Assembly (NCBI RefSeq): GCF_006228125.1
Contig: NZ_VDFY01000121.1
Location: forward strand, 1 to 64,000
Direction: 5' to 3'
DNA from: Micromonospora orduensis
Lineage (GTDB): Bacteria; Actinomycetota; Actinomycetes; Mycobacteriales; Micromonosporaceae
DNA length: 64,000 nucleotides
This document shows positions 6,125 through 12,132 of the stretch, piece after piece. Both the position numbers and the translations under genes were made by a program. A model generated the notes under the pieces. That model worked only from the letters and a program-made list of their open reading frames with translations, had not been told where the DNA came from and ran no database searches. How positions within the stretch are numbered: the stretch's first letter is position 1; every line of letters starts with the position of its first letter.

Positions 6125-8374
6125 TCACAGATCACCGGCGGCGGAGCGGAACCGGCGCAGCCGCAGGCTGTTCGCCACCACGAAGACCGAGGACAGCGCC
6201 ATCGTCGCCCCGGCGATCATCGGGTTGAGCAGCCCGGCGGCGGCCAACGGCAGGGCCGCCACGTTGTAGCCGAACGCCCAGAACAGGTTGCCCCGGATGA
6301 TGCCGAGCGTGCGCCGGGACAGTCGGATCGCGTCCACCGCCGCGTCCAGGTCACCCCGGACCAGGGTGAGGTCCGACGCCTCGATCGCCACGTCGGTGCC
6401 GGTACCCATGGCCAGTCCGAGGTCGGCCCGGGCCAGCGCCGGAGCGTCGTTCACCCCGTCACCGACCATCGCCACCGACCGGCCCTCGGCCTGGAGCCGC
6501 TTGACCACGTCGACCTTGCCGGCCGGCAGCACCTCGGCGATCACCTCGTCGATGCCCACCTCGGCGGCGACCGCGCGGGCCACTGTGGTGTTGTCCCCGG
6601 TCAACAGGATCGGAGTGAGCCCCAGGGCGCGCAGCCGGGCCACGGCCGCCCGGCTGGTCGGCCGGACCACGTCGGCGACCGCGAGGACGCCCCGGGCGCT
6701 GCCGTCCCAGGCGGCGAGGATCGCCGTCCGGCCGGCAGCCTCGGCGTCGCTGACGGCCCACTCGACCTCCGGCGGTACGTCGATGCCACGCTCGCGCAGC
6801 AGCCGGGGTCGACCGACCAGCACGGCCCGCCCGTCGACCGTGCCGGTCACGCCCAGCCCTTCGAGGTTGGCGAAGTCGGTGACCGGGGGGAGGGTGCCCG
6901 CCTCGGCGGCGCCCGCCGCGACCGCGCGGGCGATCGGGTGCTCGGAGGCGGTCTCCACCGCCCCGGCGAGCCGGAGCAGCTCGGCGCGATCCTCGCCGCT
7001 GGCCGGCACCACGTCCACCAGGGTCATCCGGCCGGTGGTCACGGTGCCGGTCTTGTCCAGCACGACGGTGTCCACCCGCCGAGTCGACTCCAACACCTCC
7101 GGCCCGTTGATCAGGACGCCGAGCTGGGCGCCCCGACCGGTGCCGACGAGCAGCGCGGTCGGCGTGGCCAGGCCCAGCGCGCACGGGCAGGCGATGATCA
7201 GCACGGCCACGGCGGCGGTGAATGCGGCAGTCGGGCCGGCGCCCGTCCCGAGCCACCAGCCGAGGGTGCCCACGGCCAGGGTGATGACGATCGGCACGAA
7301 CACACCGGAGATCCGGTCGGCCAGCCGCTGCACGGCCGCCTTGCCGCTCTGGGCCTGCTCCACCAGATCGGCCATCCGAGCGAGCTGGGTGTCGCCGCCG
7401 ACCCGGGTGGCGGTGACCACCAGCCGTCCGCCCGCGTTGATCGTGGCGCCGACCACGCCGTCTCCCGGGCCGACCTCGACCGGCACCGACTCGCCGGTCA
7501 CCATGCTGGCGTCGACGGCCGAGGTGCCCTCGTCGACCACCCCGTCGGTGGCGATCTTCTCCCCGGGCCGGACCACGAACCGGTCGCCCACGACGAGCTG
7601 GTCCACAGGTATCCGGGTCTCCACGCCGTCGCGCAGCACCGCCACGTCCTTGGCGCCGAGTTCGAGAAGGGCGCGCAGGGCGGCGCCGGCGGTCCGCTTG
7701 GAACGCGCCTCGAAGTAGCGGCCGGCCAGGATGAACACGGTCACCCCGGCGGCCGCCTCCAGGTAGATGTTGCCGGCGCCGTCGGTGCGGGTGATGTCGA
7801 AACGGAACGGGTGCGTCATGCCGGGCATCCCGGCGTCGCCGAGGAAGAGCGCCCAGATCGACCACCCGAACGCCGCCAGGGTGCCGAGTGAGACAAGCGT
7901 GTCCATGGTCGCCGCGCCGTGCCGCAGGTTGGTCCAGGCCGCGCGGTGGAACGGCAGGCCACCCCAGACCACCACCGGGGCGGCCAGGGTCAGCGACAGC
8001 CACTGCCAGTAGTCGAACTGCCAGGCGGGGACCATGGCCAGCAGGACCACCGGCACGCTGAGCGCCACCGACACCCAGAGCCGGGTACGCGGGCCCTTGA
8101 GCGGGTCCACCGGCTCCTCGTTGCTGGCGGGCGGCGCCGGCAGCGCCGCCGTGTAACCGGTCTTCTGCACGGTGTCGATGAGGTCGTCCGGGGTGACGCC
8201 GTCGACGTAGCGGACGGTGGCCTTCTCGGTGGCGTAGTTGACTGTGGCGCTCACCCCGTCCATCCGGTTCAGCTTCTTCTCGATCCGGGCGGCGCAGGCG
8301 GCGCAGGTCATCCCCCCGATCGCCAACTCGATCCGGTTCGGCGCCTCGGGCAGCGGTGTGCTGGTGGTGGTCAT
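6125..8374 (-). CDS. copA: Copper-exporting P1B-type ATPase CopA
   Basis: The 749-residue P-type ATPase has one N-terminal heavy-metal domain ([10 protein letters not shown], Cys24 and Cys27), eight predicted membrane helices, and actuator motif VTGESVPVE. The transmembrane metal site is CPC at 396-398 and the phosphorylation motif DKTGT starts at Asp440. The ATP-binding HP motif is SEHPIARAV and the hinge is [16 protein letters not shown] plus the single GMTCxxC domain identify it as a Cu(I) exporter. It is the last gene of the operon copZ - HVHPD protein - copA, 12 nt after the preceding gene. CsoR is divergent on the other side, so induction by Cu(I) through CsoR release is expected. Confidence 0.96.
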
Positions 8375-8386
8375 CGTCTGGTCCCG

Positions 8387-9337
8387 TCAGTTGTGCCCGT
8401 GCCCGGGGGTGCCGTGCTCGGCCTCCCCGGTCGGCGCTGGTCCGCTCGGGCTGGGAGCGCCACCGGCCGTAACGGCGCCGGCGACGACTGTGAACTCGGC
8501 GGTGTGCACCGCCCCGCCGTGCCGGAAGTCGAGGTAGAGCCGGTAGGTGCCGGCCGACGGCACCTCGGCGAGGAAGGTCACGGCCGGGCCGGGGCGGGTG
8601 CGGCCGTCGCCGGGCGTCCCGTCCGGGTGCACGTGCAGGTACGCGAGGTCTCCCCGGCGCAGCGCCACCAGGTGCCCGTACGCGCCGAGGTAGGGCTCCA
8701 GGTCGGTGACCGGCTGCCCGTTCCGGCTGACCGTCAGGGTGAGCGGCGAGGTGCGGCCGGGCTGCGGCTCGCCGGCCAGGGTGACCGTGTAGCCGTCGAC
8801 GCTGGTGCTGGTCGCCGGGGCGGGCAGGGGCCGCTCGGTCAGCTCCCCGGGGACGGTCACGTCCACCCCCAGGGTCAGCGGCTCGCCCCCGGTCGGGGTG
8901 AAGTCGGCGAAGGCCCGCCACTGCCCGGGACCGGCCAGGGGGCTGGCGACCCGCCAGGTGCCGTCCGGGGTCAGGTCGGGGTGGACGTGCCGGAAGCCGG
9001 AGAGGTCCCGTCGGGCCACGATCAGGTGCATCCGCTTGTCGTGTGCGACGTCGTAGCGGGTGACCGGACGGCCGTCCGGACCATCGATCGTGAAGGCGAA
9101 CTCGCCGGCCGGGGCGGCGACCGGAGCGAGGGTGTAGCCACGGTCGGAGACGAGCAGGCCGCCGGGGAGCCGGTCGGCCGCCTCGTCGTGCTCCCCGGCC
9201 GGGTGGGCGGCGTCGCCGTCGTGCAGGATCTCGGCGGCGGGGGCGCCGGGGTCGACCACGCGACCGACCCCGTACGCCGTGCCGAAGACCGCCACGAGAC
9301 CGAGGGCGAACCCGCCCAGTCGGGTCACCGTGTTCAC
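8387..9337 (-). CDS. Secreted copper-operon protein with duplicated HVHPD motif
   Basis: The 316-residue protein has an N-terminal hydrophobic segment (residues 5-24) that could be a signal peptide or anchor, so it acts outside the membrane. Two matching blocks are visible: residues 101-121 (MHLIVARRDLSGFRHVHPD) and 220-239 (GHLVALRRGDLAYLHVHPDG). Both have the pattern HL[IV]A..RR.DL..[FY].HVHPD and are followed by beta-rich segments. The C terminus is His-rich (HGTPGHGHN). The gene starts with a GTG overlapping the copZ stop by 4 nt and is followed by copA. His-pair motifs plus operon position suggest extracytoplasmic copper binding or handover. I do not recognise a named family. Confidence 0.8.
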   Translation of the reverse strand: MNTVTRLGGFALGLVAVFGTAYGVGRVVDPGAPAAEILHDGDAAHPAGEHDEAADRLPGGLLVSDRGYTLAPVAAPAGEFAFTIDGPDGRPVTRYDVAHDKRMHLIVARRDLSGFRHVHPDLTPDGTWRVASPLAGPGQWRAFADFTPTGGEPLTLGVDVTVPGELTERPLPAPATSTSVDGYTVTLAGEPQPGRTSPLTLTVSRNGQPVTDLEPYLGAYGHLVALRRGDLAYLHVHPDGTPGDGRTRPGPAVTFLAEVPSAGTYRLYLDFRHGGAVHTAEFTVVAGAVTAGGAPSPSGPAPTGEAEHGTPGHGHN

Positions 9338-9561
9338 GCCGGACCTCCGGATGAGCCGTCCACCAGTTCGTAGCCGGCCTCGTCGACGGCGGCCCGGACG
9401 GACGCCACGTCCAGCGGCTGGTCGCTGCTCACGGTGACCTGGCCGCTGGCGAGGTCGACCTGGACGTCGCGCACACCGTCGAGAGCGCCGACCTCGGCGC
9501 TTACCGCGCTGACGCAGTGCCCGCAGGTCATGCCCTGCACCTGGTACGTGGTGTTGACCAT
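9334..9561 (-). CDS. copZ: CopZ-like copper chaperone (HMA domain)
   Basis: The 75-residue protein is a single heavy-metal-associated domain with the ferredoxin-like babbab pattern. The metal-binding loop GMTCGHC has Cys13 and Cys16, and the usual VDLASGQVTV and VRAAVDEAGYE elements follow. It delivers Cu(I) in the cytosol to CopA. The ATG at 9561 has a strong upstream GGAGGAGAC. First gene of the copper operon, it overlaps the next gene by GTGA. It is transcribed divergently from csoR across a 96-nt region holding a CsoR-type operator. Confidence 0.94.
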   Translation of the reverse strand: MVNTTYQVQGMTCGHCVSAVSAEVGALDGVRDVQVDLASGQVTVSSDQPLDVASVRAAVDEAGYELVDGSSGGPA

Positions 9562-9626
9562 CAGACCGTCTCCTCCGCCTCGCTACCGGTACCCGGTGGG
9601 GGTATCCGTCAGGTTGGACCGTACCA

Positions 9627-9641
9627 TACCCCCCAGGGGTA
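9627..9641. promoter_or_regulatory. CsoR operator TACCCC-CCA-GGGGTA
   Basis: A perfect 6-bp inverted repeat with a 3-nt centre matches the G-tract palindromes bound by actinobacterial CsoR. It lies between copZ and csoR. On the csoR side a TATCCT element (9645-9650) lies only 7 nt before the ATG, suggesting a leaderless transcript whose promoter the operator overlaps. A second G-rich element GGGGGTATCC is nearer copZ (around 9596-9605). Confidence 0.75.
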
Positions 9642-9657: not shown

Positions 9658-9954
9658 ATGACCACACCCACCCCGATCCGCGGGTACACCGCCAGCAAGG
9701 ACCAGCTGCTCGCGCGGCTCCGCCGCGTCGAGGGGCAGGTCCGGGGCATCGAGAAGATGGTCGACGACGACCGCTACTGCATCGACGTGCTCACCCAGAT
9801 CTCCGCGATCCAGGCCGCCCTCGACAAGGTGGCGCTGGGGCTGCTCGACGGCCACGCCCGGCACTGCATGCACGAGGGCGCGGCCGAGGGCCGGGCCGAC
9901 GAGATGGCCACCGAGATGATGGCGGCCGTCGGCCGGCTGATGAAGCGCGGCTGA
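9658..9954 (+). CDS. csoR: Copper-sensing transcriptional repressor CsoR
   Basis: The 98-residue all-helical protein is of the CsoR/RcnR (DUF156) family: LLARLRRVEGQVRGIEKMV forms helix 1. The Cu(I) ligands appear as Cys41, His66 and Cys70, with spacing 25 and 4, identical to the C-H-C set of Mycobacterium CsoR. It binds DNA as a tetramer and is released by Cu(I). There is no clear Shine-Dalgarno before ATG 9658; a -10-like TATCCT 7 nt upstream suggests leaderless translation. It should control both itself and the divergent copZ operon. It is convergent with a decayed P-type ATPase 5 nt downstream. Confidence 0.95.
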   Translation: MTTPTPIRGYTASKDQLLARLRRVEGQVRGIEKMVDDDRYCIDVLTQISAIQAALDKVALGLLDGHARHCMHEGAAEGRADEMATEMMAAVGRLMKRG

Positions 9955-9959
9955 GGCCC

Positions 9960-10441
9960 TCAATCCGACTCCGGGTCGAGCCGTACCCGGCGCAGCAACT
10001 GGGCGTTGAGCGCCACCACGTTGTAGCCCGCCGCCCAGGCCAGGTTCTGCCGCATCTTGCGGTACGACGCCCGGGACAGCCGCACCACGGCGCCCACCCC
10101 CCGCGGGTCCGACGAGGCGAACACCACCCCGGCCGACTCGATCGCCACATCGGTGCCCGCGCCGATCGCGATGCCCACGTCGGCGCGGGCAAGCGCGGGC
10201 GCGTCATTCACTCCGTCACCGACCATCGCCACGGTCAAGCCCCGCCGCTGGAGCTCCACCACCCGGCCGTCCTTGTCCGCCGGCAGCACCTCGGCGAAGA
10301 CCTCGTCAACGCCGGGACGGAAACCGAGTTCGGCGGCTACCGCCTCGGCCACCGGCCGCGTCCCCGGTGATCATGGCGATGGTCCGGACGCCCTCGGCAC
10401 GCAGCTCGTCGACGGCCCCACCTGGCCTCCGGACGTACCTC
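9960..10441 (-). pseudogene. Remnant of a second copper/heavy-metal P-type ATPase
   Basis: Reading the minus strand, P-type ATPase sequence appears in three different frames. EVRPEAR (near 10441-10421) is followed after a frame change by [19 protein letters not shown]. After another change, [24 protein letters not shown] continues through [20 protein letters not shown] to a normal-looking C terminus with [12 protein letters not shown]. The N-terminal two thirds (HMA, membrane helices M1-M6, CPC, DKTGT) are absent. The intact downstream part (9960-10352, about 130 residues) keeps the hinge motif but cannot be a working pump. Two frameshifts and a missing N terminus point to a decaying CopB-like or second CopA gene next to csoR. 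Sequencing error at the two frameshifts would not explain the missing 5' part. Confidence 0.8.
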
Positions 10442-10704
10442 AGTGTGCATGACTCCACGGTCCTGGGCCGTACGCCGCCACGCGGGCGGTTCGCGGACCC
10501 CGACACTCCGCCAGGACCTGCGTCCCTCGGCCGGGGTCGTTAGCATTCCGACGATGGCCCTCCGGATCCGCTGCGCAGTCCGGCACCGGTGCCGCCGAGA
10601 CACGGCGGTGCTCCCGGCCGACCCCACCAGTCGTTCACCGTACGTGATCAAGCGATCGGCATCCCGCGATCCGCCGCGCCCGTCATCGCATTTCCGCGAC
10701 GACG

Positions 10705-12132
10705 GTGAACCAACCGGCCCGCCGGCACGTACCCCGCACCGGATTCGTTGGGAGTCTCGCATTGGGTTCCGACCACAGCCGTTCCGTTCCGTCCGCCCCT
10801 CCCCGGGTACGGCGGATCCTCGTCGCGACCGTGGTACCCCTGTTCGTCGCCACGGTGCTCGCGGCCGTGGTGCTCTGGCCCCGGGGCGACTCGCCGCAGA
10901 CCGGCGGCGGCGCGGACGTCCCGCGCTACCACGGCACCGTGACCCGCGTGGTGACCGAACCGTGCCCGCCCGCGCCGCAGACCCCGGAGGGCACACCGGA
11001 TGCCGGAGACGGGCCGTGCGGCACGGTGGACGTCCGGGTGCAGGACGGGCCGAGCGCCGGGCAGCAGGTCCAGACACCGGTGCCGGACGGCCCCGGGGCG
11101 CCCCGGGTCGACGTCGGCGACGAGGTGATCCTGGTCGAGCTGACCGACCCCGCCGATCCCAGCGCCAGCAACTGGAACATCGCCGAACACCAGCGCGGCA
11201 CGCCGCTGGTGTGGCTGGCGGTGGTCTTCGCCGCCGCGATCGTCGCGTTCGGCCGGTGGCGTGGCCTGGCCGCGCTCGCCGGGCTGGCCGCCAGCTTCGC
11301 CATCCTGCTCGCCTTCGTGCTGCCGGGCATCGCCGCCGGCAGGTCACCGCTGGTCGTGGCGGTGGTCGGCGCAGCCCTGATCATGTTCGTGGTGCTCTAC
11401 CTGACGCACGGGGTGACCGCGCAGACCTCGGTCGCGGTGCTCGGCACCCTGGGCAGCCTGGTGCTCACCGGCGTGTTGGCCACCATCGCCACCGCCGCCA
11501 CCCACCTCACCGGTTTCGGCAGCGAGGACGCCACCACACTGTCGATGTTCCAGGCCGACGTGGACCTGCACGGCCTGCTGCTCGCCGGGATCATCATCGG
11601 TTCGCTCGGGGTGCTCGACGACGTGACGGTCACCCAGGCGGCCACCGTTACGGAACTGGCGAACGCCAACCCGGGGCTGACCCGGTTGCAGCTCTACCGG
11701 GCGGCCACCCGGGTCGGCCGGGCGCACATCGCCTCCACGGTCAACACCATCGTGCTGGCGTACGCGGGCGCCTCGCTGCCGTTGCTGCTCCTGCTCACCG
11801 CCGACACGCGCCCCCTCGGACAGATCCTCACCAGCGAGTTCCTGGCGCAGGAGATCGTCCGCAGCGCCGTGGCCACCCTCGGTCTCATCGCCGCCGTACC
11901 GCTGACCACCGGGCTGGCCGCCGTGGTGACGGCCGCCGGCCGGTCGACCGCCGAGCCGGCCGACGACGTCCCCGCCCCCCGACCTCAGCCGGACCGGGCG
12001 GAGGCCCTGGCCGCACTGAGCTCCCCGCGAGCGGGCCCATTGAACGGACCGGACCCGACGCGGACGACACCCCCACCCACCGCCACCGACGGGTGGCCAG
12101 AGCCGAACAGGAGCACGGATACGGCATGGTGA
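10705..12132 (+). CDS. YibE/F-family polytopic membrane protein
   Basis: The 475-residue protein (GTG 10705; the first 30 residues are uncertain) has one N-terminal helix (VATVVPLFVATVLAAVVLWP). An extracytoplasmic domain of about 110 residues follows, containing paired Cys residues (TEPCPPAP, DGPCGTV). Seven or so helices come next, with the conserved YibE/F signatures FGSEDATTLSMFQADVDL, GSLGVLDDVTVTQ and AHIASTVNTIVLAYAGASLP. The C terminus is a Pro-rich, disordered tail. YibE/F proteins resemble permeases but their substrate is unknown. The 263-nt stretch upstream (10442-10704) holds no gene I can support. No operon partner: the next feature is a riboswitch. Confidence 0.85.
   Translation: MNQPARRHVPRTGFVGSLALGSDHSRSVPSAPPRVRRILVATVVPLFVATVLAAVVLWPRGDSPQTGGGADVPRYHGTVTRVVTEPCPPAPQTPEGTPDAGDGPCGTVDVRVQDGPSAGQQVQTPVPDGPGAPRVDVGDEVILVELTDPADPSASNWNIAEHQRGTPLVWLAVVFAAAIVAFGRWRGLAALAGLAASFAILLAFVLPGIAAGRSPLVVAVVGAALIMFVVLYLTHGVTAQTSVAVLGTLGSLVLTGVLATIATAATHLTGFGSEDATTLSMFQADVDLHGLLLAGIIIGSLGVLDDVTVTQAATVTELANANPGLTRLQLYRAATRVGRAHIASTVNTIVLAYAGASLPLLLLLTADTRPLGQILTSEFLAQEIVRSAVATLGLIAAVPLTTGLAAVVTAAGRSTAEPADDVPAPRPQPDRAEALAALSSPRAGPLNGPDPTRTTPPPTATDGWPEPNRSTDTAW

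Follow-up and report, generated by a model that had tools for sequence, protein, structure and literature searches.

The repressor CsoR, the chaperone CopZ and the ATPase CopA form a textbook bacterial copper system. A further copper protein can be encoded beside the exporter, as in the pneumococcal cop operon, whose gene order we take to be copY-cupA-copA. CupA, the membrane-bound copper protein of this copper export operon, has a cupredoxin fold and is modelled as giving Cu(I) to CopA before export (PMC5646241; here and below, papers are cited for part of their text). CuA assembly in Bacillus subtilis draws on CtaK and on the YtkA domain of YcnJ (PMC13344008). The COP module of the Arthrobacter plasmid pA40H1 has the gene order considered here, and in the available part of PMC6305408 its middle gene is named in passing and not studied. 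The subject of this work is a gene of that kind, X, at 8387-9337 on the minus strand of a 64,000-nucleotide stretch (the window) from Micromonospora orduensis, contig NZ_VDFY01000121.1. X is a real gene in the csoR / copZ-X-copA locus of a Micromonospora genome, and in the pA40H1 record a homologue of X is flanked by an HMA gene and a P-type ATPase gene. Its product is probably an outward-facing, membrane-anchored, putative copper-binding protein made with CopZ and CopA under copper excess.

The copper-gene setting of X

X starts with GTG and encodes 316 residues. Its start and the copZ stop share a GTGA overlap (9337-9334), and a gap of 12 bases separates its stop from the start of copA. On the minus strand, copZ (9334-9561) encodes an HMA copper chaperone, with 64 bits for PF00403 and 65.5 bits for TIGR00003 (cut-off 62, passed), and copA (6125-8374) a copper-type P1B ATPase, with 539 bits for TIGR01511 (cut-off 397). 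Divergent from copZ is a gene for a CsoR/RicR-type repressor (9658-9954, plus strand), which scores 103 bits with PF02583 and 111 bits with the RicR model, under that model's cut-off of 175. Coordinates and family models agree with the original prediction, an earlier reading of this DNA, that an open reading frame coupled to copZ by a GTGA lies between copZ and copA.

The arrangement recurs widely. Among the best 80 of 581 loci from named genomes, the closest are from Micromonospora; copA lies directly downstream of X in 73 and copZ directly upstream in 65, and of the six loci without copA, four end less than 400 bases from X. These loci were found through a pattern that holds H235 and H237 and are uninformative on those two histidines. 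A set of 73 sequences, like the plasmid set below, is free of this bias. Its loci were picked as best matches or for diversity, not at random, from 78 of which three broken or fragmentary copies (L069, L070, L077) and two longer copies of L002 and L003 (L033, L034) were dropped. A CopA homologue is found no more than 600 bases from X in 56 of the 73 loci and CopZ in 49; CsoR is present at any distance within the stretch in 35; three loci have a CopC fusion and 61 some copper link.

Two palindromes of the form TACCCCnnnnGGGTA lie between csoR and copZ and, at up to one mismatch, nowhere else in the 64 kb (four strand hits at two places, with 0.42 hits expected by chance). The csoR-proximal one, a predicted CsoR operator at 9627-9641 (TACCCCTGGGGGGTA, minus-strand reading), is present in all 22 intergenic regions aligned, that is, the window's own and 21 from the genus. 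The copZ-proximal one (9590-9604, TACCCCCACCGGGTA) is operator-like and less conserved. Both presumably resemble the CsoR operator of B. subtilis. A CsoR operator sequence was also sought in PMC4938975, and the part of the text available gives none.

A second context of X is found among its paralogues. The window's genome has three X genes. In the paralogue at L034:4079-5824, a CopC domain (PF04234, 53 bits), two hydrophobic stretches and the X tandem domain follow one another in frame, and genes for PCuAC (119 bits), a DyP peroxidase, a second CopC and a PepSY protein lie downstream. CopC occurs in 7 of 13 paralogue stretches; the fusion is open and in frame in all seven, and PCuAC and DyP are nearby in three of them. 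The third X gene of the window's genome adjoins recQ. At two of five recQ-linked loci (L194, L195) copZ lies next to X, and the recQ paralogue may therefore also derive from a copZ-X pair. The CsoR/CopZ/CopA loci, the CopC fusion with PCuAC and DyP, and the relatives in other phyla are independent contexts that agree on the copper association first proposed from the window.

Does X then protect the cell from copper, or supply it? A supply-side chaperone would carry copper from CopA or from outside to cuproenzymes (cytochrome oxidase CuA, a radical copper oxidase), in the manner of CtaK/YcnJ-YtkA, Sco or PCuAC. The company of the CopC-X paralogue is consistent with such a role, as is the fact that YtkA, whose domains aid CuA assembly (PMC13344008), is the nearest Pfam family of X. 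In S. lividans, the operon sco-ecuc-SLI_4212-dtpA, in which dtpA is the DyP gene, is tied to maturation of the oxidase and of GlxA (PMC4736821); as a copper-trafficking cluster it is comparable to the CopC-X paralogue locus. However, the X of the window sits directly between copZ and copA, behind CsoR-type palindromes, which points to an excess-copper response and leaves a supply role unlikely.

Duplicated domains and their histidines

A repeat of about 20 residues around HVHPD was the basis of the original prediction. Its two copies, HLIVARRDLSGFRHVHPD (residues 104-121) and HLVALRRGDLAYLHVHPD (residues 222-239), do carry three histidines each in register, but the pattern as then written is a letter-for-letter match to neither. 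The duplication itself is real and larger than claimed, taking in a whole domain of about 100 residues. BLASTP of one half against the other aligns 63 residues (E 6e-8 for this pair alone, with composition correction off). The local alignment score of the halves is 80, against at most 57 for shuffles (0 of 2000 reach 80), and profile-profile comparison of the halves gives 99% probability over 93-108 columns (E about 1e-17 in one comparison). What is duplicated, by these three measures, is a domain with the 20-residue repeat at its core.

Profile comparison, AlphaFold and the fold search all point to two Ig-like (immunoglobulin-like) beta sandwiches on the minus strand, domain 1 at residues 66-164 (8846-9142) and domain 2 at residues 177-288 (8474-8809). 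The AlphaFold model, made from the alignment of 60 of the 73 sequences that also served for the family scans, has a mean predicted local distance difference test score (pLDDT) of 87 and block means of 90-98 for residues 61-290. A helix at residues 3-27 precedes the two sandwiches, and much of the linker and tail falls below 50. The linker (residues 28-58, 9164-9256, minus strand), mostly of low confidence, contains His 39, 45 and 50. The fold search returned generic Ig/FnIII/filamin sandwiches, which we take as common fold only; the best VIA-align rows were the DUF4426 structure 3uc2 (Z 9.6, 96 residues, 3.2 A) and TRIM3 filamin (Z 8.8, 91 residues, 2.5 A). A sequence search of solved structures gave chance matches only (designed trefoils, ubiquitin repeats).

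Each domain of X carries the motif H-x12-H-x-H-P. In the first triad (8978-9028, minus strand), H104, H117 and H119, with P120 next to it, are kept in 72, 72 and 71 of the 73 sequences; in the second (8624-8674, minus strand), H222, H235 and H237, with P238, are kept in 71 each. Within residues 60-286, all six rank in the top ten columns by conservation. When the 73, the named loci and the plasmid-borne members are pooled (176 rows, or 173 distinct cores without three repeated ones), all six are intact in 170 of 173, and in 92 of 95 if the loci found through the histidine-holding pattern are left out. Of the three exceptions, two retain four and one, L051, retains none. All six are present in each of the 12 plasmid-borne members aligned, and members with six include Bacillota, Cyanobacteriota, Bacteroidota, Legionella and haloarchaea. 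The cross-phylum alignment has 23 sequences, 11 of them hand-picked from the 73, and omits L051 and L071, which belong to the three members lacking some or all of the six histidines. Another histidine, H99, is kept in 65 of the 73, which belong to the window's phylum and were found without a motif requirement. The duplication and the conservation of both triads support the two histidine sites of the original prediction (metal binding itself apart) and suggest one metal site per domain.

Which metal would such sites hold? X has no Cys, and Met only at positions 1 and 103; this His-only set of ligands suggests a site able to take Cu(II), or one for both Cu(I) and Cu(II). By established chemistry, three-histidine sites suit Zn(II) as well, and in several contexts X lies with heavy-metal ATPases or RND pumps whose metal is unstated. 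X could thus bind another metal, such as Zn(II), or its histidines could be structural, the protein being an envelope scaffold that merely travels with copper genes. Both versions are quite improbable, given the specific co-occurrence with CopZ, CsoR and CopC on the one hand and, on the other, six histidines whose conservation equals that of the structural Gly and Pro in the core. Still less probable is a role as copper enzyme (for instance a cuprous oxidase or reductase) whose redox centres would be the two histidine sites. D111, near the first triad, is almost invariant (71 of 73), and a Cytobacillus relative adjoins two multicopper oxidase genes, as an enzyme might; however, no enzyme family matches the window's X, the weak enzyme-named hits among its relatives are single members, and D230, the counterpart of D111, is not conserved in the relatives from other phyla.

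The C terminus had been described as His-rich. Three of the last nine residues are indeed histidines, but the tail (residues 305-316, 8390-8425, minus strand; pLDDT below 50) is lineage-specific, with H313 in 49 of the 73 and H315 in 39.

Cell location and relatives

The first 27 residues bear on where X resides. The hydrophobic helix at residues 3-27 (9257-9331, minus strand; an AlphaFold helix, hydropathy 1.66) is predicted to be an anchor or uncleaved signal, and its flanks have a net charge of +1 on the N side and -3 on the C side. The layout of the L034 paralogue is signal peptide, CopC, hydrophobic stretch, basic loop, hydrophobic stretch, X; by the positive-inside rule, this order puts X outside. 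The helix, the charge bias and the topology of the CopC fusion thus provide, by prediction, an export signal or anchor. Lipoprotein N-termini are seen in Priestia, two Hymenobacter and Calothrix relatives and, by eye, in Tolypothrix. In a simple hydropathy test, for which the start of each member was chosen by script, 50 of the 73 pass, and the N side is the more positive in 47 of those 50. For the window's member, these features and the lipoprotein relatives favour the extracytoplasmic placement originally proposed, but that placement is not family-wide (for example in Staphylococcus), and "secreted" is better read as membrane-anchored, with cleavage still possible.

Orthologues with 72-89% identity and no internal stop are present in 21 of the 22 other same-genus genomes in the order-wide sample; the remaining one (G015) has distant copies only. 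A tblastn search of plasmids found 231 records with a match, 96 of them staphylococcal, and the reverse search from the S. epidermidis protein returned actinobacterial members. The plasmid records listed mostly annotate X as hypothetical. The regions viewed were chosen by hand among these records and have incomplete gene tables. On the S. epidermidis plasmid pHD104-6_1, X comes after a CsoR-type repressor, a copper ATPase and copZ, in that order, and 8 of 11 regions from other phyla have a copper or other metal/cation ATPase, an RND pump or multicopper oxidases. A staphylococcal plasmid X (L159:4884-5540), which closes a csoR-copA-copZ run, has a His-rich start and no visible signal peptide, and 98 plasmid records match it at 99% identity or more. 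In a Hymenobacter lipoprotein (L161:5836-6795) an HMBD heavy-metal domain (PF19335) precedes the X tandem domain.

Do all these proteins belong together? We give somewhat less than an even chance to an old, unnamed copper-protein family of at least five bacterial phyla and haloarchaea, with two Ig-like domains and one putative His3 copper site in each. Its members would be outside the membrane in actinobacteria, lipoproteins elsewhere, and possibly intracellular in staphylococci, some bacilli and haloarchaea, and it would be a recurrent, overlooked third partner of CopZ/CopA.

Beside csoR in the window, the minus-strand frames 9960-10352 and 10306-10506 represent the remnant of a second P-type ATPase, of which a C-terminal stretch alone matches CopA (57%, residues 598-708). 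A longer copy stands at this site in L004-L008, from the same genus, and the fragment in the window looks like a decaying gene. The gene at 10705-12132 (plus strand) also adjoins csoR and lies near csoR in several Micromonospora loci; its product is a membrane protein, which we take to be YibE/F-like.

Proposed role and comparison with known copper proteins

How might X act? Copper would derepress the copZ-X-copA operon, CopZ would hand Cu(I) to CopA, and CopA would export it. X, tethered nearby on the outside, would capture the emerging copper at its two histidine sites, perhaps with the assistance of the histidines of linker and tail, and would then either hold it off the membrane and wall or transfer it to other envelope copper proteins. 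Most likely, then, X buffers the copper that CopA exports, or passes it on; that it binds copper, in which oxidation state, and in which direction it transfers the metal, we infer. The CsoR operon makes storage or detoxification the best fit; supply of cuproenzymes would fit the YtkA likeness and the CopC/PCuAC/DyP paralogue.

Several observations weigh against a copper-excess protein outside the membrane. No copper gene is present within the stretch examined in 12 of the 73 loci, including that of the recQ-linked paralogue of the window's genome, or in 3 of the 11 plasmid regions from other phyla (Priestia, Planococcus, Natrinema). Matches to X occur in 105 of 200 genomes from the order and in 21 of 296 phylum-wide, in two overlapping samples that each count the window's own genome; with so patchy a spread, X is not a constant component of the copper system. 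The hydropathy test is failed by 23 of the 73 members, mostly slightly under the cut-off and in a few cases for want of any hydrophobic start. A hydrophobic start is also absent from 5 of the 11 relatives in other phyla (S. epidermidis, Planococcus, Cytobacillus and two haloarchaea), which may be cytosolic; in four of the five the open frame upstream holds no signal, and in Natrinema the frame stays open upstream over a short, partly hydrophobic stretch, so that the start may be misplaced. The X homologue at L051:4042-4953 adjoins copA and has lost all six histidines while keeping the fold residues. Finally, the nearest characterised domain, YtkA, is linked in the text cited above to oxidase copper supply, not to detoxification.

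Why would such a protein matter? Many Actinomycetota, though by no means all of them, have a third gene between copZ and copA, and on staphylococcal plasmids it follows copZ. If X binds copper, it is relevant to the fate of the metal once CopA has exported it in cells that lack a classical periplasm, and it offers a testable model of two duplicated histidine sites, with the added feature that a paralogue is joined to CopC in one polypeptide. Many proteins now called hypothetical would gain a name from a family model based on the six histidines.

The description of X as uncharacterised holds: no family model scores over its cut-off, and no functional study of X, which has no searchable name, was recognised in the open-licence literature. 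A literature text search on the motif found no copper-protein paper, and X is not mentioned in the available part of the Frankia metal review PMC4531530. The cg3283/cg3286 genes of the Corynebacterium glutamicum CopRS cluster were considered, and the part of PMC3140484 at hand gives no basis for a match. CopL was likewise considered and set aside. In Pfam no model covers the window's X, the best being YtkA (PF13115) with 18.0 bits, under the cut-off of 25.9, and NCBIfam has no match at E up to 1. Matches of relatives to Golvesin_C (10 of 60), Big, DUF4198 and adhesin models were weak and scattered and were set aside.

Among proteins encoded with copper genes, X is no CopZ: it has no HMA match and no Cys. 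CopC (PF04234), PCuAC (PF04314) and YcnI (DUF1775) are extracytoplasmic copper-binding accessory proteins, as X is predicted to be from its placement, but X lacks an N-terminal His after a signal peptide and has two Met only. Their models give no match to X at E up to 1, CopC being seen only as the extra domain of the paralogue. From CupA, X differs in being Ig-like, duplicated, His-only and most likely outside. Weak Cupredoxin_1 matches are found in 2 of 60 members and, below cut-off, in 2 of 10 plasmid relatives; the structure matches of X are Ig/FnIII/filamin-like, with which a cupredoxin relation is still compatible.

The closest likeness is to the YtkA-like proteins (CtaK and the C-terminal domain of YcnJ of Bacillus subtilis), which, like X, are extracytoplasmic and tied to copper. 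The similarity is weak but recurrent. YtkA matches 27 of 60 members at E up to 0.1 (best 7e-6), and of ten plasmid-borne relatives scanned one, haloarchaeal, is over the cut-off with 32.3 bits. It is stronger for domain 1, which gives 80-83% probability (E about 1e-5, score 33-35) with nine of the 14 actinobacterial YtkA hits; domain 2 gives 9-11% with the same nine, at a score of 21; 40 column shuffles reach at most 16.3. Unlike YtkA, however, X has two tandem domains with an H-x12-H-x-H-P triad in each, and it lies in a CsoR/CopZ/CopA locus, not in an oxidase or import locus.
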